Source: Deltaproteobacteria bacterium RBG_16_64_85 (GTDB taxonomy: Bacteria > Desulfobacterota > Deferrimicrobia > Deferrimicrobiales > Deferrimicrobiaceae). From it: a stretch of DNA of 33,154 bases. Shown one piece after another: positions 7,980 through 26,712 of the stretch (within the stretch, counting starts at the first letter, position 1; each line of letters begins with the position of its first letter). A program made the position numbers and the translations under genes. Where the stretch lies: contig MGQW01000031.1 in the NCBI GenBank assembly GCA_001798885.1, positions 1 through 33,154 of the forward strand, given 5' to 3'. A model generated the notes under the pieces. That model did no database searches and was not told the DNA's origin. It saw nothing but the letters and a program-made list of their open reading frames with translations.

Positions 7980-9620
7980 TTGATCTTCCTCTACACACTG
8001 CTCGTGTCCCTTCTGACGACCATCGCCCTGATTCCGGCGTTGAGCGCCGTGGCGAAACGGTTCCATGTGGTGGACCTCCCGGGCGAACGGAAGGTCCACG
8101 AGCGGCCCATCCCCCGGATCGGCGGGATCGCGATGGCGGCGGGGGCGCTCCTCCCCGTGCTTCTCTGGGCGCGCGGCGAACATTTCATCTGGGCCTGGCT
8201 GGCCGGCGCGGCGATCGTGGTTGGTTTCGGCATCGTCGACGATTGCAGGGATATCAGCCCGAAATGGAAGTTCCTCGGGCAGTTCCTTGCGGCCCTTGTC
8301 GTTGTCGTCCTCGGGAAGATCAAGATCCACACGCTGGGGATGCTCCTTCCGGGGGAGGACGACCTGCCCGGCTGGGTCGCCCTCTCGTTGACCGTCCTGG
8401 CGATCATGGGAGTGACCAACGCCATCAACCTCGCGGACGGCCTGGACGGCCTGGCCGGCGGCATCTGCCTGCTCATCTTCTGCTGCATCGGGTACCTCGC
8501 CTACCTGGAAGGAGACCTTCTCATAGGGCTTGTCTGCCTGGCGATGGCCGGCGCGATCTTCGGCTTCCTGCGCTACAACACCCACCCCGCCACGGTGTTC
8601 ATGGGGGACACGGGGAGCCAGCTGCTCGGATTTACGGCGGTGACCCTTTCGCTCGCTCTCACGCAGGGGGACACGGCGGTAAGCCCCGTCCTCCCCCTCC
8701 TCCTCCTGGGGATCCCGGTCCTGGACACGTTGTCGGTGATGACCATCCGCGTGATGAAGGGCAGGTCCCCCTTCTCCGCGGACAAGAACCACATCCATCA
8801 CAACCTCATGGCCCTCGGGCTGCATCACGGGGAGTCCGTGATGGCGATTTACGCCTGCCAGACATTTCTGGTGGTCGCCGCCTTCCTGTTCCGCTTCCAC
8901 TCGGACTGGCTGCTGCTGGGAGGGTACCTCGTGTTCTCGGTCGCCTCCCTCTCCCTGTTGATGGTGGCCGGCCGGAACGGGTGGCACTCGATACCCGCCA
9001 CGCACATCCCCCGTTTTTCCGGGTTCCGGTATCTGAAACGATTGAAGGAGGAAGGGGAGTTCATCAAGCCCGTCTTCCGGGCGCTTCGGATCGGGCTCCC
9101 CCTGCTCCTGGCTCTGACCTGCCTGCTACCGGGGAAATTGCCCGCCTACGCCCCGTACTGCGCCCTGGGGTTTTCCGGGCTGATCGCGGCGGCCTGGCGC
9201 TTCAAGCGCGACCGGCTGGGAGAGGCTCTGCGGCTGACCCTTTACCTTCTCATCCCGTTCGTCGTGTACGAGAGCTCGCAGTCGACCGGCGGCTGGATCA
9301 AGGGGGTGCCGCTTCGGGTCTACAACGCGGCGTTCTTCCTGCTGGCGGTGCTCGACATTCTGGTATCGAAATTCTCGAAGCGCAGGGAAGGGTTCAAATC
9401 CACCCCGCTCGATTTCCTGATCTTCTTCCTGGCCCTGGTGGTCCCCAACCTGCCCGAGCAGCACCTGCAGGCGACCCACCTCGGGCAGGTGGCGGCGAAG
9501 ATCGTGATTTTCTATTTCAGTTGCGAAGTGCTGATGGCCGAGTTGCGGAAGAACCTGGACGGGCTTGTCGCCGGCACGCTGACGGCGCTCCTGGTCCTGT
9601 CCATAAAGGGGTTCGTCTGA
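7980..9620 (+). CDS. WecA/MraY-type undecaprenyl-phosphate sugar-1-phosphate transferase with C-terminal membrane extension
   Basis: This protein starts the lipid-linked glycan by moving a HexNAc-1-phosphate from a UDP-sugar to undecaprenyl phosphate in the inner membrane. Motifs in order are KVHERPIPRIGG near residue 40, the Asp pair in the segment FGIVDDCRDISPKW, NAINLADGLDGLAGG near residue 145, TVFMGDTGSQLLG near 205 and the HIHH histidine box near 265. The family core ends at about residue 335. A further 200 residues follow with about six hydrophobic segments, giving 546 aa against roughly 340-370 for plain family members. TTG 7980 begins 2 bp after the exosortase stop, so the two genes are probably translationally coupled. 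In this locus type an initiating transferase is expected, and no other candidate is present. Confidence 0.88.
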   Translation: MIFLYTLLVSLLTTIALIPALSAVAKRFHVVDLPGERKVHERPIPRIGGIAMAAGALLPVLLWARGEHFIWAWLAGAAIVVGFGIVDDCRDISPKWKFLGQFLAALVVVVLGKIKIHTLGMLLPGEDDLPGWVALSLTVLAIMGVTNAINLADGLDGLAGGICLLIFCCIGYLAYLEGDLLIGLVCLAMAGAIFGFLRYNTHPATVFMGDTGSQLLGFTAVTLSLALTQGDTAVSPVLPLLLLGIPVLDTLSVMTIRVMKGRSPFSADKNHIHHNLMALGLHHGESVMAIYACQTFLVVAAFLFRFHSDWLLLGGYLVFSVASLSLLMVAGRNGWHSIPATHIPRFSGFRYLKRLKEEGEFIKPVFRALRIGLPLLLALTCLLPGKLPAYAPYCALGFSGLIAAAWRFKRDRLGEALRLTLYLLIPFVVYESSQSTGGWIKGVPLRVYNAAFFLLAVLDILVSKFSKRREGFKSTPLDFLIFFLALVVPNLPEQHLQATHLGQVAAKIVIFYFSCEVLMAELRKNLDGLVAGTLTALLVLSIKGFV

Positions 9621-9625
9621 AAGAT

Positions 9626-9688
9626 AATCCGTTGACCATCCGGAGGTTCGAACCGATGCGATACCGGTGCGCGGCTGTATGCCTGGTT
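9626..9688 (+). repeat. 63-bp imperfect direct repeat, left copy (matches 11024-11086)
   Basis: Position 9626 aligns with 11024 without gaps over 63 bp with 6 mismatches: three just before the start codon and three within the coding part. The repeat contains a CGGAGG ribosome-binding site and the start ATGCGATACCGGTGCGCGG of the prsT-like lipoprotein gene. The two copies flank the AAA ATPase gene. Confidence 0.9.
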
Positions 9689-9724
9689 TGCCCTAAACGG
9701 ATGATCTGCCTTGATATTCCATGA
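9655..9724 (+). pseudogene. truncated duplicate of the 5' end of the prsT-like gene
   Basis: From ATG 9655 the frame reads MRYRCAAVCLV and then leaves the family sequence, ending at TGA after 22 codons. The intact gene downstream begins MRYRCAGVCLV. The ribosome-binding site CGGAGG at 9641-9646 is also kept. This is either the left end of a duplication made when the ATPase cassette entered, or all that remains of a tandem paralogue. It may still be translated as a short peptide. Confidence 0.7.
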
Positions 9725-9748
9725 AAGTATGATTATCATGCTTTCATG
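9720..9748. promoter_or_regulatory. 29-bp palindrome overlapping the ATPase start codon
   Basis: The left arm CATGAAAG-TATGAT and right arm ATCATG-CTTTCATG pair with only two mismatched positions besides the centre base. The start codon of the ATPase (9746-9748) is the last triplet of the palindrome. This placement suggests an operator covering the translation start or a leaderless start, so expression is probably controlled by a dimeric DNA-binding protein. A smaller palindrome with the same TGAAA/TTTCA outer half-sites lies upstream of the second ATPase of this family at 26692-26712. Confidence 0.6.
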
Positions 9749-10990
9749 AGGAACCAGGTGGCTCCATCCTTTTTACCCCGCGTTGCCGCGGCTGCTATGG
9801 AGCGCGCCCTGCGCGCGTCGCCTGTCGTCGTGCTGCTCGGCGCAAGACAGACGGGTAAGACCACTCTCGTCCGCTCCCTGCCGCAGCTCGCCGACCGGCC
9901 CTACCTCACGCTCGACGATTTCGACCTGCGCGCCCAGGCGGATGCCGACCCGGAAAGCGTGGTCCGGCGGGCGCCCACCCTGGTGCTCGACGAGGTCCAG
10001 CGCAGCCGCGATCTTTTGATCGCCGTCAAACGCCTCGTGGATGATGACGCGGCGCGCACCCCGGGCCGCTTCGTCCTCACCGGCTCGGCCAACCTGCTCA
10101 TGCTGGAGCGCGTGTCGGAGACCCTGGCCGGACGGGCGGTGTACGTCACACTTTGGCCCTTCACCCGGCGCGAACGCCTTGGATTTGGGCGCACGGGCAT
10201 GTGGAGCGAACTGTTTGCCGTGCCATTTGGACACTGGCGCGATCTACTTGCCGCGGACACCGGCCCGGAGGAAGATTGGCGGGCCGCCGCGCGTTTAGGC
10301 GGGATGCCCGTGCCGGCGCACGATCTGCCGGATGACGAAGCGCGTTCTCTCTGGTTCTCCGGCTACGTCCAGACCTATCTCGAACGCGACCTGCAGACGT
10401 TGCGTGCGGTGGAGAACCTCCCGGACTTCCGCCGCCTCATGCGGGCAGCCTGTTTGCGCATCGGCGGCCTGCTGAACCAGACCGAGACAGGGCGGGACGT
10501 GGGGATTGCGCAACCCCAGGTGCATCGGTTCCTGAATCTGATGGAAGCCAGCTACCAGGTCATCCGTCTTCCCGCGTTCTCCGTCAACCGCACCCGTCGG
10601 CTGATCAAAGCTCCGAAGCTTTACTGGAGCGACACCGCGCTGGCCCTGTTTCTCGCCGGGGAGGCCGAACCGCGCGGGGCCCATCTCGAGAATCTCGTGC
10701 TCATGGACCTGCTGGCTTGGCGCGACGTGCAGCCGCGACGCCCGGAGGTGCAGTACTGGCGCACCGCCACCGGCACCGAGGTGGACTTCGTGATCGAGAC
10801 GCCGCAACGGGTCCTGCCCATCGAGGTCAAGGCGGTCGCGCGGGTCGGGCCGTCCGACGCCAAGGGGCTTGAGTCCTTTCTGGACGAGTATCCCGACCTT
10901 GCCGACGGCGCCCTCCTGCTCCACGGCGGAACCGGGACCTTTCCACTGACCCGTCGTGTGCTCGCCGCGCCGTGGTGGCAGGTGTGCTGA
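9746..10990 (+). CDS. AAA ATPase with DUF4143 domain
   Basis: A 414-residue ATPase of the AAA_14/DUF4143 family. Walker A is GARQTGKTT at residues 32-40 and Walker B is LVLDEVQ near residue 75. The C-terminal DUF4143 part includes a TEVDFVIE...LPIEVKAVA segment resembling a PD-(D/E)XK nuclease core. Family members are common, mobile-looking orphan genes whose role is poorly known; DNA interaction is suspected from the nuclease-like domain. It sits in the same orientation inside the exopolysaccharide operon, between the WecA-like and PrsT-like genes, where it has no obvious role. Flanking 63-bp repeats suggest insertion or duplication. ATG 9746 lies at the end of a palindrome and has no Shine-Dalgarno site. 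Confidence 0.88.
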   Translation: MRNQVAPSFLPRVAAAAMERALRASPVVVLLGARQTGKTTLVRSLPQLADRPYLTLDDFDLRAQADADPESVVRRAPTLVLDEVQRSRDLLIAVKRLVDDDAARTPGRFVLTGSANLLMLERVSETLAGRAVYVTLWPFTRRERLGFGRTGMWSELFAVPFGHWRDLLAADTGPEEDWRAAARLGGMPVPAHDLPDDEARSLWFSGYVQTYLERDLQTLRAVENLPDFRRLMRAACLRIGGLLNQTETGRDVGIAQPQVHRFLNLMEASYQVIRLPAFSVNRTRRLIKAPKLYWSDTALALFLAGEAEPRGAHLENLVLMDLLAWRDVQPRRPEVQYWRTATGTEVDFVIETPQRVLPIEVKAVARVGPSDAKGLESFLDEYPDLADGALLLHGGTGTFPLTRRVLAAPWWQVC

Positions 10991-11023
10991 GCGTCTGGTA
11001 TATAACCCCGACGACCTGATAAA

Positions 11024-11086
11024 AATCCGTTGACCATCCGGAGGTTCGGTACGATGCGATACCGGTGCGCGGGCGTGTGCCTGGTT
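11024..11086 (+). repeat. 63-bp imperfect direct repeat, right copy (matches 9626-9688)
   Basis: 57 of 63 positions match the copy at 9626-9688. This copy drives the intact lipoprotein gene: it carries CGGAGG at 11039-11044 and ATG at 11054. Confidence 0.9.
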
Positions 11087-13138
11087 CTCGCGAGTGCGTT
11101 CCTTCTCGCCTGCAGCGGCCCGGAGGCGAAGAAGATGAAGTTCTACGACAAGGGGAAGGCCCTGGTCGCGAAGGGGGACTACGTCAAGGCCGGCCTCGAG
11201 TTTAAAAACGCTATCCAGATCGACCCGAAGTTCGCCGACGCCTTCTTCCAGTTGGGGATGGTCCAGATGATGCGGGGCGACTTGGGCGGGGCCTATCGCT
11301 CGATCCTGCGCGCCACGGAGCTCGACCCGAAGAACCTTCCGGCCCAGGTCCAGGCGGGCAAGCTCCTGCTGGTCGGCGGGGAGAAGGAGAAGGCGATGGA
11401 GAAGGCCGAACTCGTCCTGGCGCAGGACCCGGGCAACGAGGAGGCGCGGCTCCTGAAAGGTGCGGTCTACGTGGCCGGCAAGGAGGACGCGAAGGCGATC
11501 TCCCACCTGGAGGGGATGATCGCCAAGGGGATGGCGAACCCGGAGCTGTATCTGCTCCTGGCCAGGGTCCACCTGCAAGAGAAAGAATTCCGGGGGGCGG
11601 AGGAGGCCTTGGCAAAAGGGATCGCGCTGAACCCGAAATCGCTCCCCTTGCACCGCGCCATGGCCGACGTGTACGCGGCCTCAGGGAAAACCGGGCCCGC
11701 CGCCGAAGAGGTGAAGAAGGTCATCGAACTGGAGCCCGAAAACTACGGCAACCGGGTCACTCTGGCGGGCCTGTACTGGGGGACGGGGGAGAAGGGGAAG
11801 GCCCGGGAACTGTTGCAGACCCTCCTGGAGGCGAGGCCGTCCGACGAGGCGTGCCGGCTGGACGTGGCCGGGTTCTTCGTTTCCCGGGGGGGATTCGGGG
11901 AGGCGGAAAAGGTCCTTACGGCGGGGATCGACCGGGACGCGAAGAGCTTCCCGCTGCGCCTGGCGCTGGGGGACCTCTACGGGAACACCGGCAGGATGGA
12001 CAACGCGGCCACCGTTTTCCGAGAGTGCCTGGCGCTGGACAAGAACCCCGACCGGCCGGAGATCCTCCAGGCGAAGAACTCTCTGGCGCGGATCCACCTG
12101 GCGCGGCAGGAGGCCGACAAGGCGAAGGGGTACGTGGAGGAAGTGATCAAGGCGAGCCCCAACAACGGGGACGCCCACCTGACGAGAGGGAATCTTTTCC
12201 TGCTCGAACGGGACGGCGCGGGGGCGGTGGCCGAGTTCCGCACGGTCGTGCGCGAGAAACCCCGTTTCCTCCCGGGATACCTGCTCCTGTCCGAGGCGCA
12301 CCTGATGAAAAATGAGACGGGCCTGGCGCTGGAAGCCCTGCAGAACGGTCTGAAGGCCGATCCCGGCTCGCGGGACGTGCTGCGGGCGCTGGCGCGCTTC
12401 CACGCCATGCAGAAGGATTTCAAGGAGGCGGAGAAACCGCTTGCCAAGGTCCTGGAAAAGAATCCCGATGATCTCGAGGTGCGGGCCGATCTGGCCGACC
12501 TGTTCACGGTATCCGGGGATCTCAAGCGCGCCGAGGCCGGGTACGCCGACATCAAGCGGCGGGCCCCGAAGCACCCGCTGGGGTACGTGAAAACGGGCCA
12601 GTACTATCTGACCCGGCAGGAATTGGGGAAGGCGGCCGCCGAGTTCGAGCAGGCGGTTGCGATCGTCCCGGAGAGCATGGAGATCCAATCGCTTCTGGGG
12701 AAGCTCTACGCCGCGCAGAAGGAGTACGGGAAGGCCGCCCGGGTATACGAGAGGGTGCTTGAGCGGCATCCGGACTATTGGCCCGCGGCGAACGACTTGG
12801 CGTTTCTGCTCTGCGATCGCGACGGCTCGGCCGGGGACCTGGACAAGGCGCTCTCGCTGGCACAGAACGCGCTCAACCGGCGCCCCGGGGAGGCGGTCAT
12901 CCTCGATACGCTGGGGTGGATCTACCACAAGAAGGGCGATGTGGACCGGGCGGTCGACCTTCTCCGGCAGGCCCAGGGGAAGCTCCCGGAACATCCCGAA
13001 GTCAACTACCACCTGGGAATGGCCCTCGTCCGGGCGGGGAAAAAGGAGCAGGCGAAGGAGCCCCTCCGCAAGAGCATCGCCTTCAAGGGGGATTTCCCCG
13101 GGAAAGAGGAGGCCGCGAAAGTGCTGGCGGGGATATGA
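11054..13138 (+). CDS. PrsT-like TPR-repeat lipoprotein of exosortase/EPS loci
   Basis: A 694-residue protein made of TPR repeats from about residue 30 to the end (helical pairs with the A/G-x-x-x-L-x-x-A-x-x-x-x-P-x pattern, more than a dozen units). The N-terminus from ATG 11054 is MRYRCAGVCLVLASAFLLAC, a lipoprotein signal with lipobox LLAC followed by SG, so it should be lipid-anchored in an outer or inner membrane facing the periplasm. An open TTG at 11030 is eight codons further up but would spoil the signal and lies before the CGGAGG site at 11039, so 11054 is the start. Such TPR proteins accompany PEP-CTERM/exosortase exopolysaccharide loci and are thought to scaffold assembly or export. 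It is shorter than the roughly 900 aa I recall for the family. Confidence 0.85.
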   Translation: MRYRCAGVCLVLASAFLLACSGPEAKKMKFYDKGKALVAKGDYVKAGLEFKNAIQIDPKFADAFFQLGMVQMMRGDLGGAYRSILRATELDPKNLPAQVQAGKLLLVGGEKEKAMEKAELVLAQDPGNEEARLLKGAVYVAGKEDAKAISHLEGMIAKGMANPELYLLLARVHLQEKEFRGAEEALAKGIALNPKSLPLHRAMADVYAASGKTGPAAEEVKKVIELEPENYGNRVTLAGLYWGTGEKGKARELLQTLLEARPSDEACRLDVAGFFVSRGGFGEAEKVLTAGIDRDAKSFPLRLALGDLYGNTGRMDNAATVFRECLALDKNPDRPEILQAKNSLARIHLARQEADKAKGYVEEVIKASPNNGDAHLTRGNLFLLERDGAGAVAEFRTVVREKPRFLPGYLLLSEAHLMKNETGLALEALQNGLKADPGSRDVLRALARFHAMQKDFKEAEKPLAKVLEKNPDDLEVRADLADLFTVSGDLKRAEAGYADIKRRAPKHPLGYVKTGQYYLTRQELGKAAAEFEQAVAIVPESMEIQSLLGKLYAAQKEYGKAARVYERVLERHPDYWPAANDLAFLLCDRDGSAGDLDKALSLAQNALNRRPGEAVILDTLGWIYHKKGDVDRAVDLLRQAQGKLPEHPEVNYHLGMALVRAGKKEQAKEPLRKSIAFKGDFPGKEEAAKVLAGI

Positions 13139-17667: not shown

Positions 17668-17708
17668 GAGGGCGGAGCTGGTTTATCCGGCTCCGCCCTC
17701 TCGCGTTT
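17668..17708. terminator. bidirectional intrinsic terminator after the EPS operon
   Basis: A perfect 11-bp stem (GAGGGCGGAGC at 17668-17678 with GCTCCGCCCTC at 17690-17700) encloses an 11-nt loop, followed by TCGCGTTTTATC. It lies 24 bp after the kinase stop and just past the end of the convergent vapC gene, so it can serve both strands, although the T-run is short. Confidence 0.8.
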
Positions 17709-18124
17709 TATCGGTGGCCTGAAGATGTAAGCCAGTTCGCAAGCCGCAAGCCCCGGATTCGCCGGAATTCCCGACTGTTGGCCGTGACCAGCGTTACGCT
17801 GAGGCTGACCGCGTGGGCGCCGATGAGAAGATCCATCGAACCGATCGGTGTTCCCGCTTTTTCCAGAGCCGCCCGGATTTCGCCGTAGGCCGCCGCTGCG
17901 GACTCGTCAAACGGAGCGATTTCGAACGGCACCAGGAACCCTGCGAGCGCCTCCCGGTTTTTTACGGGATCGCCGCTCTTGGCGACCCCGAACCAGAGTT
18001 CGGCGGTCGTGATCGAAGAAAGCCCGACCTCGCCCGGTTGGCACTTTGTGAGGCGTTTGATCAGCCTCGGGGGCTTTCGACGGATCAGCTCGATGCAGCC
18101 GTCGGTGTCCAGAAGGTATTTCAT
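17708..18124 (-). CDS. vapC: VapC-like PIN-domain toxin ribonuclease
   Basis: A 138-residue PIN protein beginning MKYLLDTDGCIELIRR. The acidic metal site is visible as D6, E42 (TTAELWFG) and D98 (GSMDLLIGAHA), followed by the conserved TANSREF segment at 114-120. It should cleave a specific RNA, probably tRNA or rRNA, when not neutralised by the antitoxin. The ATG at 18124 overlaps the antitoxin stop by four bases (ATGA), which marks translational coupling. Longer in-frame starts up to 18220 would run inside the antitoxin gene and are not convincing. Confidence 0.9.
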   Translation of the reverse strand: MKYLLDTDGCIELIRRKPPRLIKRLTKCQPGEVGLSSITTAELWFGVAKSGDPVKNREALAGFLVPFEIAPFDESAAAAYGEIRAALEKAGTPIGSMDLLIGAHAVSLSVTLVTANSREFRRIRGLRLANWLTSSGHR

Positions 18125-18354
18125 TCCGGGAAAGCTTTCCGCCGTTGCGTGGGCAGTTGCACCCGGTCCTCGAAGAAATCGGGCGTGAAGCGCGAAAGAC
18201 TGTCGACGAGTCCATCCCACGACCCCGACGGCGGGATCAGGAGCACGATGTTGCCCGCTTTCTTCACGAAGACGTGATCGCCTTCGAACCGCATTTCGCG
18301 CGGCAATCGTACCGCCTGGCTTTGCCCGTTTCGAAACAGTTTGGCGCTTTTCAT
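18121..18354 (-). CDS. vapB: VapB-like antitoxin (AbrB/SpoVT fold)
   Basis: A 77-residue protein starting MKSAKLFRNGQSQAVRLP, the swapped-hairpin AbrB-type DNA-binding start of VapB antitoxins (K-x-F-x-N-G-x-S-Q-A-V-R-L-P). The C-terminal part (SRFTPDFFEDR) is the usual toxin-binding tail. It represses its own operon and neutralises VapC. ATG 18354 has GGAG 8 bp upstream on the - strand; an ORF extension to 18393 would run through the operator and is rejected. The operator at 18366-18388 lies directly upstream. Confidence 0.9.
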   Translation of the reverse strand: MKSAKLFRNGQSQAVRLPREMRFEGDHVFVKKAGNIVLLIPPSGSWDGLVDSLSRFTPDFFEDRVQLPTQRRKAFPE

Positions 18355-18365
18355 GGCCGGCTCCA

Positions 18366-18388
18366 AGTATATATTATGAATATATACT
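18366..18388. promoter_or_regulatory. inverted-repeat operator of vapBC
   Basis: Two perfect 10-bp arms (AGTATATATT and AATATATACT) are separated by 3 bases, 12 bp upstream of vapB. Position and symmetry are as expected for VapBC autorepression, and the AT-rich arms probably include the -10 region. Confidence 0.8.
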
Positions 18389-18474
18389 ACCAACCCGGGT
18401 CCCGTTTGTCACGAAAGGAAAAGGACAAAGACCTGGCGGCCCTGCTTTCCGGGGCAGGAAAGGGAGGAGGGTCG

Positions 18475-18945
18475 TCACCGCCGCCACATCGATTGCACGG
18501 CGGAGACGACGGTCGCGAGCGCCTTCTGGCCTGAAGATGTGAAGGTGATGAATCCTGCGATCCCGACGAGCAGGAGGGCGAGAACCGCGAGGGCGACGAC
18601 GGGAGGATGCAGGAACCATGGGGGCTGGGCCGGCAACAGAAATACCGGCCTCTTGGGGATTTCCTTCGGTGCGGCCAGTTCCGGGAAGGAAAGGGAGCCG
18701 GGGTCCGATGCAGGGGGAGGAGCAGGCGGCACCTCCTTCGGAAGGTTTCTCTCCGGCTCCGGCCTGGGGTCGGACGCTTGTGCCGCCTTCGGCTCCTTGG
18801 TGGAAAGGGTGGCTACCTCCGAGCTCAGGACGATGATCGCGGCGCCGCACTTGCGGCAAGCGACGCGGATTCCGTGCCCCTTGACCAGGGCGAGGTCCAG
18901 CCGGTAGCGCGAGTTGCAGGAATCGCATTCGATGACCAGTGACAT
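18475..18945 (-). CDS. membrane protein with N-terminal MJ0042-type zinc ribbon
   Basis: A 156-residue protein. The zinc ribbon at residues 5-38 has C7-x2-C10 and C30-x2-C33 with the VACRKCGAAI pattern. A Pro/Glu-rich linker spans residues about 50-105. One membrane helix (about 113-135, VVALAVLALLLVGIAGFITF) leads to a short basic tail. Such proteins often carry a DUF3426 domain after the helix; here it is missing, while a DUF3426-like remnant lies at 21561-21900. The ribbon resembles that of the tyrosine kinase encoded 0.8 kb away on the other strand (V-x-C-R-K-C-G-[SA]-x-I in both). The function is not known. It is transcribed towards vapBC with an 86-bp gap before the vapBC operator. Confidence 0.75.
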   Translation of the reverse strand: MSLVIECDSCNSRYRLDLALVKGHGIRVACRKCGAAIIVLSSEVATLSTKEPKAAQASDPRPEPERNLPKEVPPAPPPASDPGSLSFPELAAPKEIPKRPVFLLPAQPPWFLHPPVVALAVLALLLVGIAGFITFTSSGQKALATVVSAVQSMWRR

Positions 18946-19014
18946 CCCCTGTCCCGTCGCTCCGATATGCCCCCATTATCCGAACCGGGTGCGGGAAAGG
19001 CAAGGTCGGCAGGT

Positions 19015-19305
19015 TTAACGTATTTCCCTTTTCAGGAGCCGGTACGTTTCCTCGTAGATCCGTTCGCGCGGACCGATCGCGACGATTTCGACGACGCTCC
19101 TCATGATACGATAAATGATCCTGAAGGTTCCCACCCTGAAGCTTCGCAGTCCGACAAGCTCGTCCTTCAGCGCCTTTCCCGACAAGGGATCGGCAAGAAT
19201 CGCCTTCATGGACGCCCTGGTCTTTCTCTTCAGGTCCGGATGCATGCGGCGGACAAGCTCAGCGATCTCGTCTGGAACCCTGAGCCTGCGAAGAGGCCGT
19301 TTCAT
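19015..19305 (-). CDS. RelE/ParE-family toxin
   Basis: A 96-residue basic protein with the RelE/ParE fold pattern: helices (DEIAELVRRMHPDLKRKTRASMKAI), then DPLSGKALKDELVGLRSFRVGTFRIIYRI and a final beta strand VEIVAIGPRERIYEE. The R-S-F-R-V-G-x-x-R-I-I-Y core is diagnostic for this superfamily, whose members cleave mRNA on the ribosome or poison gyrase. It lies 9 bp after the Phd-like antitoxin gene in the same operon. Confidence 0.88.
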   Translation of the reverse strand: MKRPLRRLRVPDEIAELVRRMHPDLKRKTRASMKAILADPLSGKALKDELVGLRSFRVGTFRIIYRIMRSVVEIVAIGPRERIYEETYRLLKREIR

Positions 19306-19314
19306 GACAGGCCG

Positions 19315-19575
19315 CTATCGAAACAATTCGTCGAGCGTGTACAGTCGCGCCTTTTTCTCCTTCAGCGACCGTAATCCCTTCCGGATTTCCTCCGCCAGCG
19401 CGGCGTCGGATCGGACTGCGATGGTCTCCTTCAGGCTTTCGAATTCCCCGAGGCTGATCAGCACGGCGGCCGGGGCTCCGTTTTTCGTGATGACGATCTC
19501 CTCGTCGGTATCGCTGACGGCCTGCACGAGCCCGCTCAGCTTCATCTTGGCTTCCGAGAGGGACAGCGTTTTCAT
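19315..19575 (-). CDS. Phd/YefM-family antitoxin
   Basis: An 86-residue protein starting MKTLSLSEAKMKLSGLVQAV and continuing EEIVITKNGAPAAVLISLGEF, the standard Phd/YefM N-terminal DNA-binding fold. The C-terminal half (IRKGLRSLKEKKARLYTLDELF) is the toxin-wrapping tail. ATG 19575 has GGAGG 7 bp upstream. It forms an operon with the RelE/ParE toxin and probably represses it through the site at 19617-19635. Confidence 0.9.
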   Translation of the reverse strand: MKTLSLSEAKMKLSGLVQAVSDTDEEIVITKNGAPAAVLISLGEFESLKETIAVRSDAALAEEIRKGLRSLKEKKARLYTLDELFR

Positions 19576-19609
19576 GATCTGACCTCCATTAGGGTTGACC
19601 AGAATAAAG

Positions 19610-19636
19610 ACTATAATGACAGGGAGGCGCTGTCAA
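19610..19636 (-). promoter_or_regulatory. promoter with embedded operator for the phd-relE operon
   Basis: On the - strand TTGACA (complement of 19631-19636) is followed 15 bp later by TATAGT (19615-19610); a TAGTCT placed 17 bp after TTGACA is an alternative -10. An inverted repeat with perfect 6-bp arms TGACAG and CTGTCA (19617-19635, 7-bp spacer) covers the space between the boxes, as expected for antitoxin autorepression. This promoter faces away from the RHH/PIN promoter next to it. Confidence 0.6.
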
Positions 19637-19674
19637 TAGGAGCCGAGGGCGTGGACATACAGGTCGCGCCGGAT

Positions 19675-19703
19675 TTGACGATGCAATGCAAATGCGGTAG
19701 TAT
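19675..19703 (+). promoter_or_regulatory. sigma-70 promoter of the RHH/PIN operon
   Basis: TTGACG at 19675-19680, a 17-bp spacer and TAGTAT at 19698-19703 form a close match to a housekeeping promoter, 41 bp before the antitoxin start at 19744. Confidence 0.7.
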
Positions 19704-19712
19704 TGCATTGCA
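19682..19712. promoter_or_regulatory. inverted-repeat operator of the RHH/PIN operon
   Basis: Perfect 10-bp arms TGCAATGCAA (19682-19691) and TTGCATTGCA (19703-19712) are separated by 11 bp. They lie over the spacer and -10 box of the promoter at 19675-19703, exactly where a ribbon-helix-helix autorepressor would block polymerase. Confidence 0.8.
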
Positions 19713-19743
19713 CGAGGCCGGATGGAACGAAGGAGGAAACGGT

Positions 19744-19998
19744 ATGCCGGGCCAACTGACCGTACGTTTGACGTCGGAACTGGAAGAGGGGATCGAAGCG
19801 CTTTCGCGGCGCTCCCGTCGTCGCCGCTCGGAGATCGTCCGGCTAGCGCTCGAGCGCTATCTCCGGGAAGAAGCGGGGGAAGGAACGCCCTCCCCGTACG
19901 GCGGGGTGAAAAACCTCATCGGGAAGGTGGAAAGCGGCATCCCCGACCTCGGGGAAGCGCACCGTGAACATCTGCGCCGCCGGATCCGGCGTGGCTGA
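19744..19998 (+). CDS. ribbon-helix-helix (CopG-type) antitoxin
   Basis: An 84-residue protein starting MPGQLTVRLTSELEEGIEAL and continuing SRRSRRRRSEIVRLALERYL, a typical RHH domain (beta strand LTVRLT, two helices). The C-terminal half should bind the PIN toxin. ATG 19744 has an AAGGAGG site about 8 bp upstream. An ORF extension to 19651 would cross the operator and promoter and is rejected. It ends overlapping the toxin gene start. Confidence 0.88.
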   Translation: MPGQLTVRLTSELEEGIEALSRRSRRRRSEIVRLALERYLREEAGEGTPSPYGGVKNLIGKVESGIPDLGEAHREHLRRRIRRG

Positions 19999-20407
19999 TC
20001 TGCTGCTGGACACCGGCCCGTTCGTCGCACTGCTCGATCGGAGCGAGCGGAATCACGAGCGGTGCGTCGCGTTTTTCCGGAATGTCCGGGGACGGCTGAT
20101 CACGACCGAGCCGGTGCTGACCGAGGCGGTCTTTCTGCTCGGCCCGTCGTTTTCCCGCCAGAAACCGGCGCTTGATTTTGTCCTTGCGGGTGGGGCCGAA
20201 CTGGTTCCCATGGTGCCGGCGCTTCTCAAACGCTGCGACCGTCTGATGTCGAAATATTCCGACGTCCCCATGGATTACGCGGATGCGACTTTGGTTGCCG
20301 TCGCCGAGGCACTCGGCATCCGGGACGTTTTGACGCTGGACCGCAGGGGTTTTTCCGTTTACCGGTATGCGTCGAGGGGGTCTTTCCGTATCTTTCCCGA
20401 TACGTAA
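19991..20407 (+). CDS. PIN-domain toxin ribonuclease
   Basis: A 138-residue PIN protein starting at GTG 19991 as (V)ADLLLDTGPFVALLDRSE. Metal-site acids are D7, E45 (TEPVLTEAVFLL) and the pair in MDYADATLVAVAE, followed by VLTLDRRGF. It is the ribonuclease partner of the RHH antitoxin, overlapping its stop codon by 8 bases. GTG 19964 gives nine extra residues without family support. This D-T-G-P-F-V-A-L-L-D group is distinct from the VapC at 17708-18124. Confidence 0.88.
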   Translation: MADLLLDTGPFVALLDRSERNHERCVAFFRNVRGRLITTEPVLTEAVFLLGPSFSRQKPALDFVLAGGAELVPMVPALLKRCDRLMSKYSDVPMDYADATLVAVAEALGIRDVLTLDRRGFSVYRYASRGSFRIFPDT

Positions 20408-25463: not shown

Positions 25464-26657
25464 CTACGAGCAAGCGTGCCAGGCCTTTACGTGGAATCCT
25501 TCCCTTTCGTAACTCTCGTTTCCGCCGTACACGAGCATTCCATCCTTTGCCGCGTTCCCCTTGAGGGACATCCAGTACCTGAGCCCGTTGAAAAAGTCCC
25601 CCGCGACGGTCTTGCCCGATTTTATCTCCACCGGCAGCAGAGTCCGTCCGTAATCGACGAGCAGATCGATCTCGTGACCCGTCTGATCCCGCCAGAAATA
25701 GAGGGGCGGTTCTTCACCCGAGTGGGCGAAGACCTTGTAGATCTCGGAGAGGATGAACGTCTCGAAGATGCTCCCGCGCAAGGGGTGGGCCGCCAGGTCT
25801 TCTTCGTTTCGGAGATGAAGGAGGTAGCACAACAGCCCGCAGTCCAGGAAGTACAGTTTCGGCGTCTTGATGATGCGTTTCGAAAAGTTCCTGAAATGGG
25901 GGCGCAAAAGGTGTACGAGAGAGCTGGCCTCGAGGACGGAGATCCACGCCCTTGCGGTCGGGTGCGTGATGCCGCAGTCCGCGGCCAGGGAGGACAGGTT
26001 CAGCAACCGGCCGGTCCTCCCGGCGCACAAACGGACGAAATTCTGGAACGCGCTCAAGTCCCCGATCCGCAGCACATCGCGGACGTCCCGCTCCACATAG
26101 GTTCGAAGGTAGCTCCCGTACCACTCGCGGGCATTGAGATTCCCGGCGTGGATTGCCGGGTACATCCCGGTAAAAAGGACATTTTCGGGATCGGTGCCCG
26201 GCGGACCCGCGCTGCCGTGATGCAGGAGCCGATCCGGGTTCAAGGGCGTGGTTCCCCTGAGTTCAGAGAGGGACAGGGGATGGAGCCGAAGGAGGGCGAT
26301 CCTTCCGGCAAGGCTCTGGCTCACCTTCGAGAGCATCAGGAACTGCTGGGAGCCGGTAAGGATGAACCTGCCGGCTTTCCCTTCGAGATCGACGATCGTC
26401 TGGATATAGGAAAACAGCTCCGGGACCCGTTGCGCTTCGTCGATAATGACGCCGCCCTTGAGCCCCCCGAGAAACCCTCTTGCATCCCGGCTTGCATATT
26501 CCCTCTGTTCCGGGTCCTCAAGTGAAACATAGCGATAGTCGGGAAAGACCAGGCGCGTCAGGGTCGTCTTCCCCGATTGGCGTGGGCCGGATACGGACAC
26601 TACAGGAAATTGCGTCGAGAGCTGCCTTAATTTGCTTGCGAGGGCTCTCTTAAACAT
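25464..26657 (-). CDS. AAA ATPase with DUF4143 domain (second copy)
   Basis: A 397-residue ATPase from ATG 26657 (MFKRALASKLRQL). Walker A is GPRQSGKTT near residue 24, Walker B is GVIIDEAQRV, and the sensor-like FILTGSQQFLML follows. The C-terminal DUF4143 domain carries FWRDQTGHEIDLLVD and LLPVEIKSGKT, a PD-(D/E)XK-like core. It shares the architecture of the gene at 9746-10990 but the two proteins are only distantly similar. A TTG at 26711 would extend the frame by 18 residues, but that stretch covers the palindrome at 26692-26712, so ATG 26657 is preferred. Role unknown; it is flanked by fragments of a related ATPase and of a PIN toxin. Confidence 0.87.
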   Translation of the reverse strand: MFKRALASKLRQLSTQFPVVSVSGPRQSGKTTLTRLVFPDYRYVSLEDPEQREYASRDARGFLGGLKGGVIIDEAQRVPELFSYIQTIVDLEGKAGRFILTGSQQFLMLSKVSQSLAGRIALLRLHPLSLSELRGTTPLNPDRLLHHGSAGPPGTDPENVLFTGMYPAIHAGNLNAREWYGSYLRTYVERDVRDVLRIGDLSAFQNFVRLCAGRTGRLLNLSSLAADCGITHPTARAWISVLEASSLVHLLRPHFRNFSKRIIKTPKLYFLDCGLLCYLLHLRNEEDLAAHPLRGSIFETFILSEIYKVFAHSGEEPPLYFWRDQTGHEIDLLVDYGRTLLPVEIKSGKTVAGDFFNGLRYWMSLKGNAAKDGMLVYGGNESYEREGFHVKAWHACS

Positions 26658-26691
26658 ACGATATTCATAAAAGATCTTTTCGTTTGTGTCA

Positions 26692-26712
26692 ATTGAAAAT
26701 TCAATTTTCAAT
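26692..26712. promoter_or_regulatory. 21-bp perfect palindrome upstream of the second DUF4143 ATPase
   Basis: Arms ATTGAAAATT and AATTTTCAAT pair perfectly around one central base, 35 bp before the ATG at 26657 (- strand). It is AT-rich in a GC-rich setting and shares outer TGAAA/TTTCA half-sites with the palindrome at the first ATPase. Probably an operator; it also borders a PIN remnant on the other side. Confidence 0.65.

Follow-up and report, generated by a model that had tools for sequence, protein, structure and literature searches.

A one-gene AAA_14-DUF4143 ATPase cassette probably inserted with a 63-bp target duplication at a wecA-prsT junction

The window analyzed here, a stretch of 33,154 nucleotides from Deltaproteobacteria bacterium RBG_16_64_85 (contig MGQW01000031.1), carries an AAA_14-DUF4143 ATPase gene between a wecA-like gene and prsT, flanked by two copies of the prsT start. 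The gene probably entered this junction as a one-gene cassette, through a generic process for which the ATPase was not needed and which left about 63 bp of the target in duplicate. The locus illustrates how an operon, here a polysaccharide/protein-sorting one, can take up a solitary defence-type gene and stay unbroken.

The final gene before the insertion encodes a WecA-like glycosyl-1-phosphate transferase (PF00953 family match and ORF; 7980..9620, forward strand) and is preceded by an exosortase gene whose score exceeds the XrtD cut-off. On the other side lies prsT (11054..13138, forward strand), which encodes a TPR lipoprotein of the PEP-CTERM/exosortase system and scored 342.3 bits against TIGR02917 (XrtA/PEP-CTERM PrsT; curated cut-off 312.2). 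Downstream of the operon, at 17708-20407 of the window, lies a cluster of small genes that by eye resemble toxin-antitoxin genes (VapBC-, RelBE- and PIN-like).

The direct repeat, D1, was characterized by repeat alignment, BLAST and ORF translation. Its left copy (9626..9688, forward strand) lies right after the wecA-like gene, the ancestral position of the prsT start, and its right copy (11024..11086, forward strand) is part of the intact prsT gene. The copies align over 63 nt without gaps and are identical at 57/63 positions (flank against flank, BLAST E 6.9e-22); each contains an RBS-like GGAGG, an ATG (9656 in the left copy, 11054 in the right) and 11 codons of prsT, translated as MRYRCAAVCLV on the left and MRYRCAGVCLV on the right. 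The six mismatches fall into three clusters (AAC/GTA 5' of the ATG, CT/GC and A/G). A 24-nt core occurs twice in the whole window, both times in a D1 copy (chance expectation 0.00), and the D1 match score of 45 compares with a best swapped-pair score of 12 among 57 loci, so the repeat is not a chance match. An assembly artefact was rejected by the reasoning that an exact k-mer join predicts identical copies, whereas 90% identity was observed. The left copy continues into a 22-codon dead-end ORF, MRYRCAAVCLVCPKRMICLDIP, with its stop at 9722-9724. The original prediction, that the left flank of the ATPase duplicates the ribosome-binding site and opening 11 codons of the lipoprotein gene and that this operon gene retained an intact start, is borne out in both parts.

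In seven distant orthologous loci (L059, L060, L065, L066, L068, L072 and L074) the wecA-like gene directly abuts a single prsT, with neither the ATPase nor a second start, so that the ATPase is an insertion; the absence of the insert in relatives is seen at gene-order level only. The comparison with close relatives proposed in the original prediction thus gave the expected single prsT in distant relatives, but no close ATPase-free relative was found. Within the host's family the best matches to the WecA-like protein reached 31-39%, with no close relative of the operon, and a search for PrsT at E 1e-80 among 395 phylum genomes returned no other member of the host's family (best orthologue 49% identical). 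A nucleotide-level empty site for the wecA-prsT locus was found in none of the family, the genome contigs and about 400 phylum genomes.

The inserted unit delimited by comparison of the flanks (9689..11023, forward strand) is 1335 bp long, and its sole gene is the AAA_14-DUF4143 ATPase (9746..10990, forward strand). It contains no transposase or integrase gene, and the combination of terminal inverted repeats and transposase that marks a DNA transposon or IS element is absent from it. The protein matches the PADLOC PDC-S01 models along its full length (1.2e-102, residues 8-411) and combines an ATPase with a PD-(D/E)XK nuclease motif; Walker A/B and E..EVD..ExK are near-invariant across 117 homologues. 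According to PMC12988326, PDC-S01 ranks fourth in frequency among prokaryotic defence systems, and experimental validation of most PDCs is reported as pending. Purifying selection acts on the ATPase (dN/dS 0.115 against the cassette of the same-genus genome G001; range 0.115 to 0.161). An AlphaFold model (mean pLDDT 43.6) was not used, and an Rfam search of the region gave no match. A second AAA_14-DUF4143 gene, 31% identical, is located at 25464-26711 (reverse strand) of the window with its own upstream palindrome, ATTGAAAATTGAATTTTCAAT, at 26692-26712; the 2.2-Mb source genome has eight AAA_14-DUF4143 genes.

The same cassette occurs elsewhere in relatives. A core at 9704..10993 (forward strand) is common to G001 (89% nucleotide identity), where it lies at the junction of prsK- and prsR-like genes, and 9727-10990 (forward strand) is common to G006, a genome of another genus (81%), where it lies near tRNA-Arg. 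In both relatives the left border of the shared block coincides with the start-site palindrome or falls slightly 5' of it, and the right border is the stop codon. About ten further DUF4143 pairs at different loci likewise share a block whose left end is near the start-site palindrome or -35 box and whose right end is at, or not far from, the stop codon. The prsK-prsR junction is unoccupied in G002 (TAAGCGATGG; occupied form, TGAGCGATGG), and closely related Thermus megaplasmids show the pxpA|CRISPR junction in both states, with a cassette and without one. HB27 (L264) carries a 95%-identical cassette at another locus, its gene being followed on the 3' side by a degenerate CRISPR repeat. The copies in G001 and G006, the shared-block pairs and the Thermus junctions together indicate that DUF4143 genes travel as single-gene cassettes, and the proposed insertion of the ATPase between the wecA-like gene and prsT agrees with this. 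Two candidate empty sites were discarded: HB5018 (L265), considered for HB27, has an internal deletion of the ATPase instead, and the neighbouring gene of L146 is located elsewhere in its genus. A search of the available literature on DUF4143 mobility or palindromes returned nothing. The G001 cassette (L010, 1477-2791) is also in an exosortase-associated setting, and its left flank has the REP-like GGGACGTTCTTAG and GGGACAGACTTAAAT. Two different DUF4143 genes, at L126 (G012) and L255 (G002), lie in opposite orientation at a shared promoter region that precedes a nucleotide-sugar epimerase/reductase-like gene; this suggests an insertion hotspot.

A promoter-like TTGATA-17-TATCAT (9711..9739, forward strand) ends 6 nt 5' of the ATPase ATG, a position from which a leaderless mRNA might be transcribed. 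A near-perfect 29-bp palindrome, CATGAAAGTATGATTATCATGCTTTCATG (9720..9748), spans the -10 box and the start codon. Its core GTATGATTATCATAC is present in the G001 and G006 cassettes, and ATGATTATCAT in a Thermus cassette too; the palindrome sequence varies between lineages. At a threshold score of 7 or more, palindromes across the start region were found in 47/114 DUF4143 genes, versus 9/114 upstream windows and 5/114 coding windows of the same genes and versus 8/68 Fic genes (p = 2e-5); with dinucleotide-keeping shuffles, 24 of 59 had p < 0.05. On the simplest reading the palindrome would be a putative operator for autoregulation of the ATPase. The start-codon palindrome of PDC-S01 genes, mostly absent from Fic genes, is a separate lead to their regulation.

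Flanking direct repeats, scored as the best ungapped match of 16 or more between 250-nt flanks, were detected at 14/116 DUF4143 genes of the phylum versus 0/159 size-matched random genes (p 3.5e-6); the flank structure that the original prediction proposed to look for around other family members does therefore recur. The repeats are about 20-240 bp long, and several are ends of a neighbouring gene (gene names at DUF4143 and Fic loci were assigned by eye): the duplicated sequence is the 3' end of an upstream response-regulator-like gene at L146 (64/65), of an upstream helicase-like gene at L165 (121/133) and of the upstream gene at L213 (67/87, with gaps), and a promoter region at L126. At L152 a 25-bp repeat resembles a tRNA 3' end, but tRNA integration was rejected there because ARAGORN finds no tRNA. 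Several flanking repeats, at DUF4143 and Fic genes alike, are REP-like or other dispersed elements and not target duplications; GGGAC-type REP-like repeats adjoin the DUF4143 cassettes L007, L117, L142, L169, L191 and L193, where REP-associated transposases might play a part.

An insertion mechanism specific to the ATPase, as 14/116 against 0/159 seemed to support strongly, was overturned by the Fic control. Fic genes of the same phylum have flanking repeats in 7/68 cases (p = 0.81 against DUF4143), including 3' ends of UvrC-like and HsdM-like neighbour genes. Pooled, single accessory genes reach 21/184 versus 0/159 for random genes (p 1.2e-6), the comparison sets being one gene family (Fic) and random genes. 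Since the two rates are equal, the duplication is a generic footprint: it belongs to the insertion of single accessory genes, not specifically to the AAA_14-DUF4143 ATPase. The flanking repeat is missing from the majority of DUF4143 copies, among them the two nearest relatives of the window copy (in G001 and G006), and the best resolved occupied/empty pair, from Thermus, has no long duplication; the long-duplication footprint is thus a minority outcome of insertion. On both counts, the targeted mechanism suggested earlier is not supported as a property of the ATPase. In this phylum, about a tenth of single-gene defence-type loci carry such duplicated gene ends and direct repeats.

In the generic insertion favoured here, a self-contained cassette (promoter/palindrome plus AAA_14-DUF4143 ATPase of the PDC-S01 type) would have entered the wecA-prsT junction just inside prsT, likely at a staggered double-strand break or at two distant nicks in the target. 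Both ends would have been filled in and then joined to the linear cassette, yielding the target duplication of ~63 bp; this chemistry is inferred. The right copy, still fused to prsT, would have been retained by selection, and the left copy would be a relic that drifted to 90% identity.

Campbell-type integration, in which a circle or fragment with the ATPase and a homologue of the prsT start recombined at the 63-bp homology, is an unlikely alternative; the 10% difference would then be divergence between donor and recipient and not age. The clustering of the D1 differences fits it, for transposed Arabidopsis genes a comparable insertion of circles, giving chimeric repeats, was proposed (PMC2869330), and a Thermus cassette apparently brought 3' flanking sequence, the degenerate CRISPR repeat, along when it reached a second locus. 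However, it requires a donor with the cassette already beside prsT, and no such donor was found; at other copies the duplicated ends come from unrelated neighbours and differ by 0-23%, which is easier to explain by target duplications of different age.

Slightly less likely again is transposition driven by the ATPase, with the AAA+/PD-(D/E)XK protein nicking strands tens of bases apart and inserting its own gene with long target duplications. In about ten pairs the two ends of the cassette coincide with the palindrome and the stop codon of its gene; this, the near-invariant nuclease motif and the excess of flanking repeats over random genes speak for such transposition. Against it, the footprint is equally frequent at genes of the unrelated Fic family and absent from most DUF4143 copies, and terminal inverted repeats are not the rule (inverted matches of at least 16 at 5/116 DUF4143 loci, the window copy not among them). 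The broader proposition that PDC-S01 ATPases are self-moving single-gene elements, which would bind their own start-site palindrome and make distant nicks that give long target duplications, is more doubtful still; if true, a gene that ranks among the commonest defence candidates in prokaryotes would be a transposon of a new type. The replacement of the body of a tandem prsT paralogue by the ATPase, raised in the original prediction, would account for a gene start left behind at the ancestral position but is very improbable, given that none of the relatives examined has tandem prsT genes, that paralogue starts with 90% likeness over the RBS and signal peptide, yet broken off at codon 11, would be a coincidence, and that the same type of remnant, duplicated neighbour-gene ends, lies beside single-gene inserts of unrelated function.

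If the generic insertion is accepted, the six D1 differences would reflect its age, and the divergence of such footprints allows rough dating of an insertion. The difference clusters of 3, 2 and 1 are a moderate fit to simple drift. Assuming free drift of the left copy, 6/63 corresponds to about 0.10 per site on one branch; dS against the G001 cassette is 0.353, or about 0.18 per lineage. Because the former is smaller than the latter, the insertion may postdate the split of the window and G001 cassettes, a rough sign that rests on six differences and carries an uncertainty of about twofold. Copies at 90% identity also uphold the earlier view that six differences in 63 bp speak against a very recent event.

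The window locus is probably a member of the long-target-duplication kind already described in H. pylori; its empty allele is known from gene order alone. 'Insertion with long target duplication' was described by Nobusato, Uchiyama, Ohashi and Kobayashi (2000, Gene 259:99-108), as cited in PMC2869330 and PMC3077401; as far as these citing papers describe it, the two cases share a gene inserted without its own transposase and a long direct target repeat on its flanks, whereas the present insert consists of a single AAA_14-DUF4143 gene that brings its own promoter, between copies at 90% identity. With PDC-S01, a phage-defence candidate (PADLOC; PMC12988326), the predicted protein shares an ATPase fused to PD-(D/E)XK and a patchy, multi-copy, single-gene system; an antiviral activity of the window copy would be putative, and cassette borders, start-site palindrome and insertion footprints are not mentioned in the available text of that description. 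Transposed Arabidopsis genes (PMC2869330) are likewise single genes at new sites with direct repeats of mostly genic sequence, flanking repeats occurring at 17% versus 5.9% of control genes; unlike the window locus they are eukaryotic, and a circle-insertion model was preferred for them. IS elements and integrase-borne islands are also discrete inserts with direct repeats, whereas the window unit has no transposase, integrase or terminal inverted repeats, and its kind of repeat is long and variable in length.
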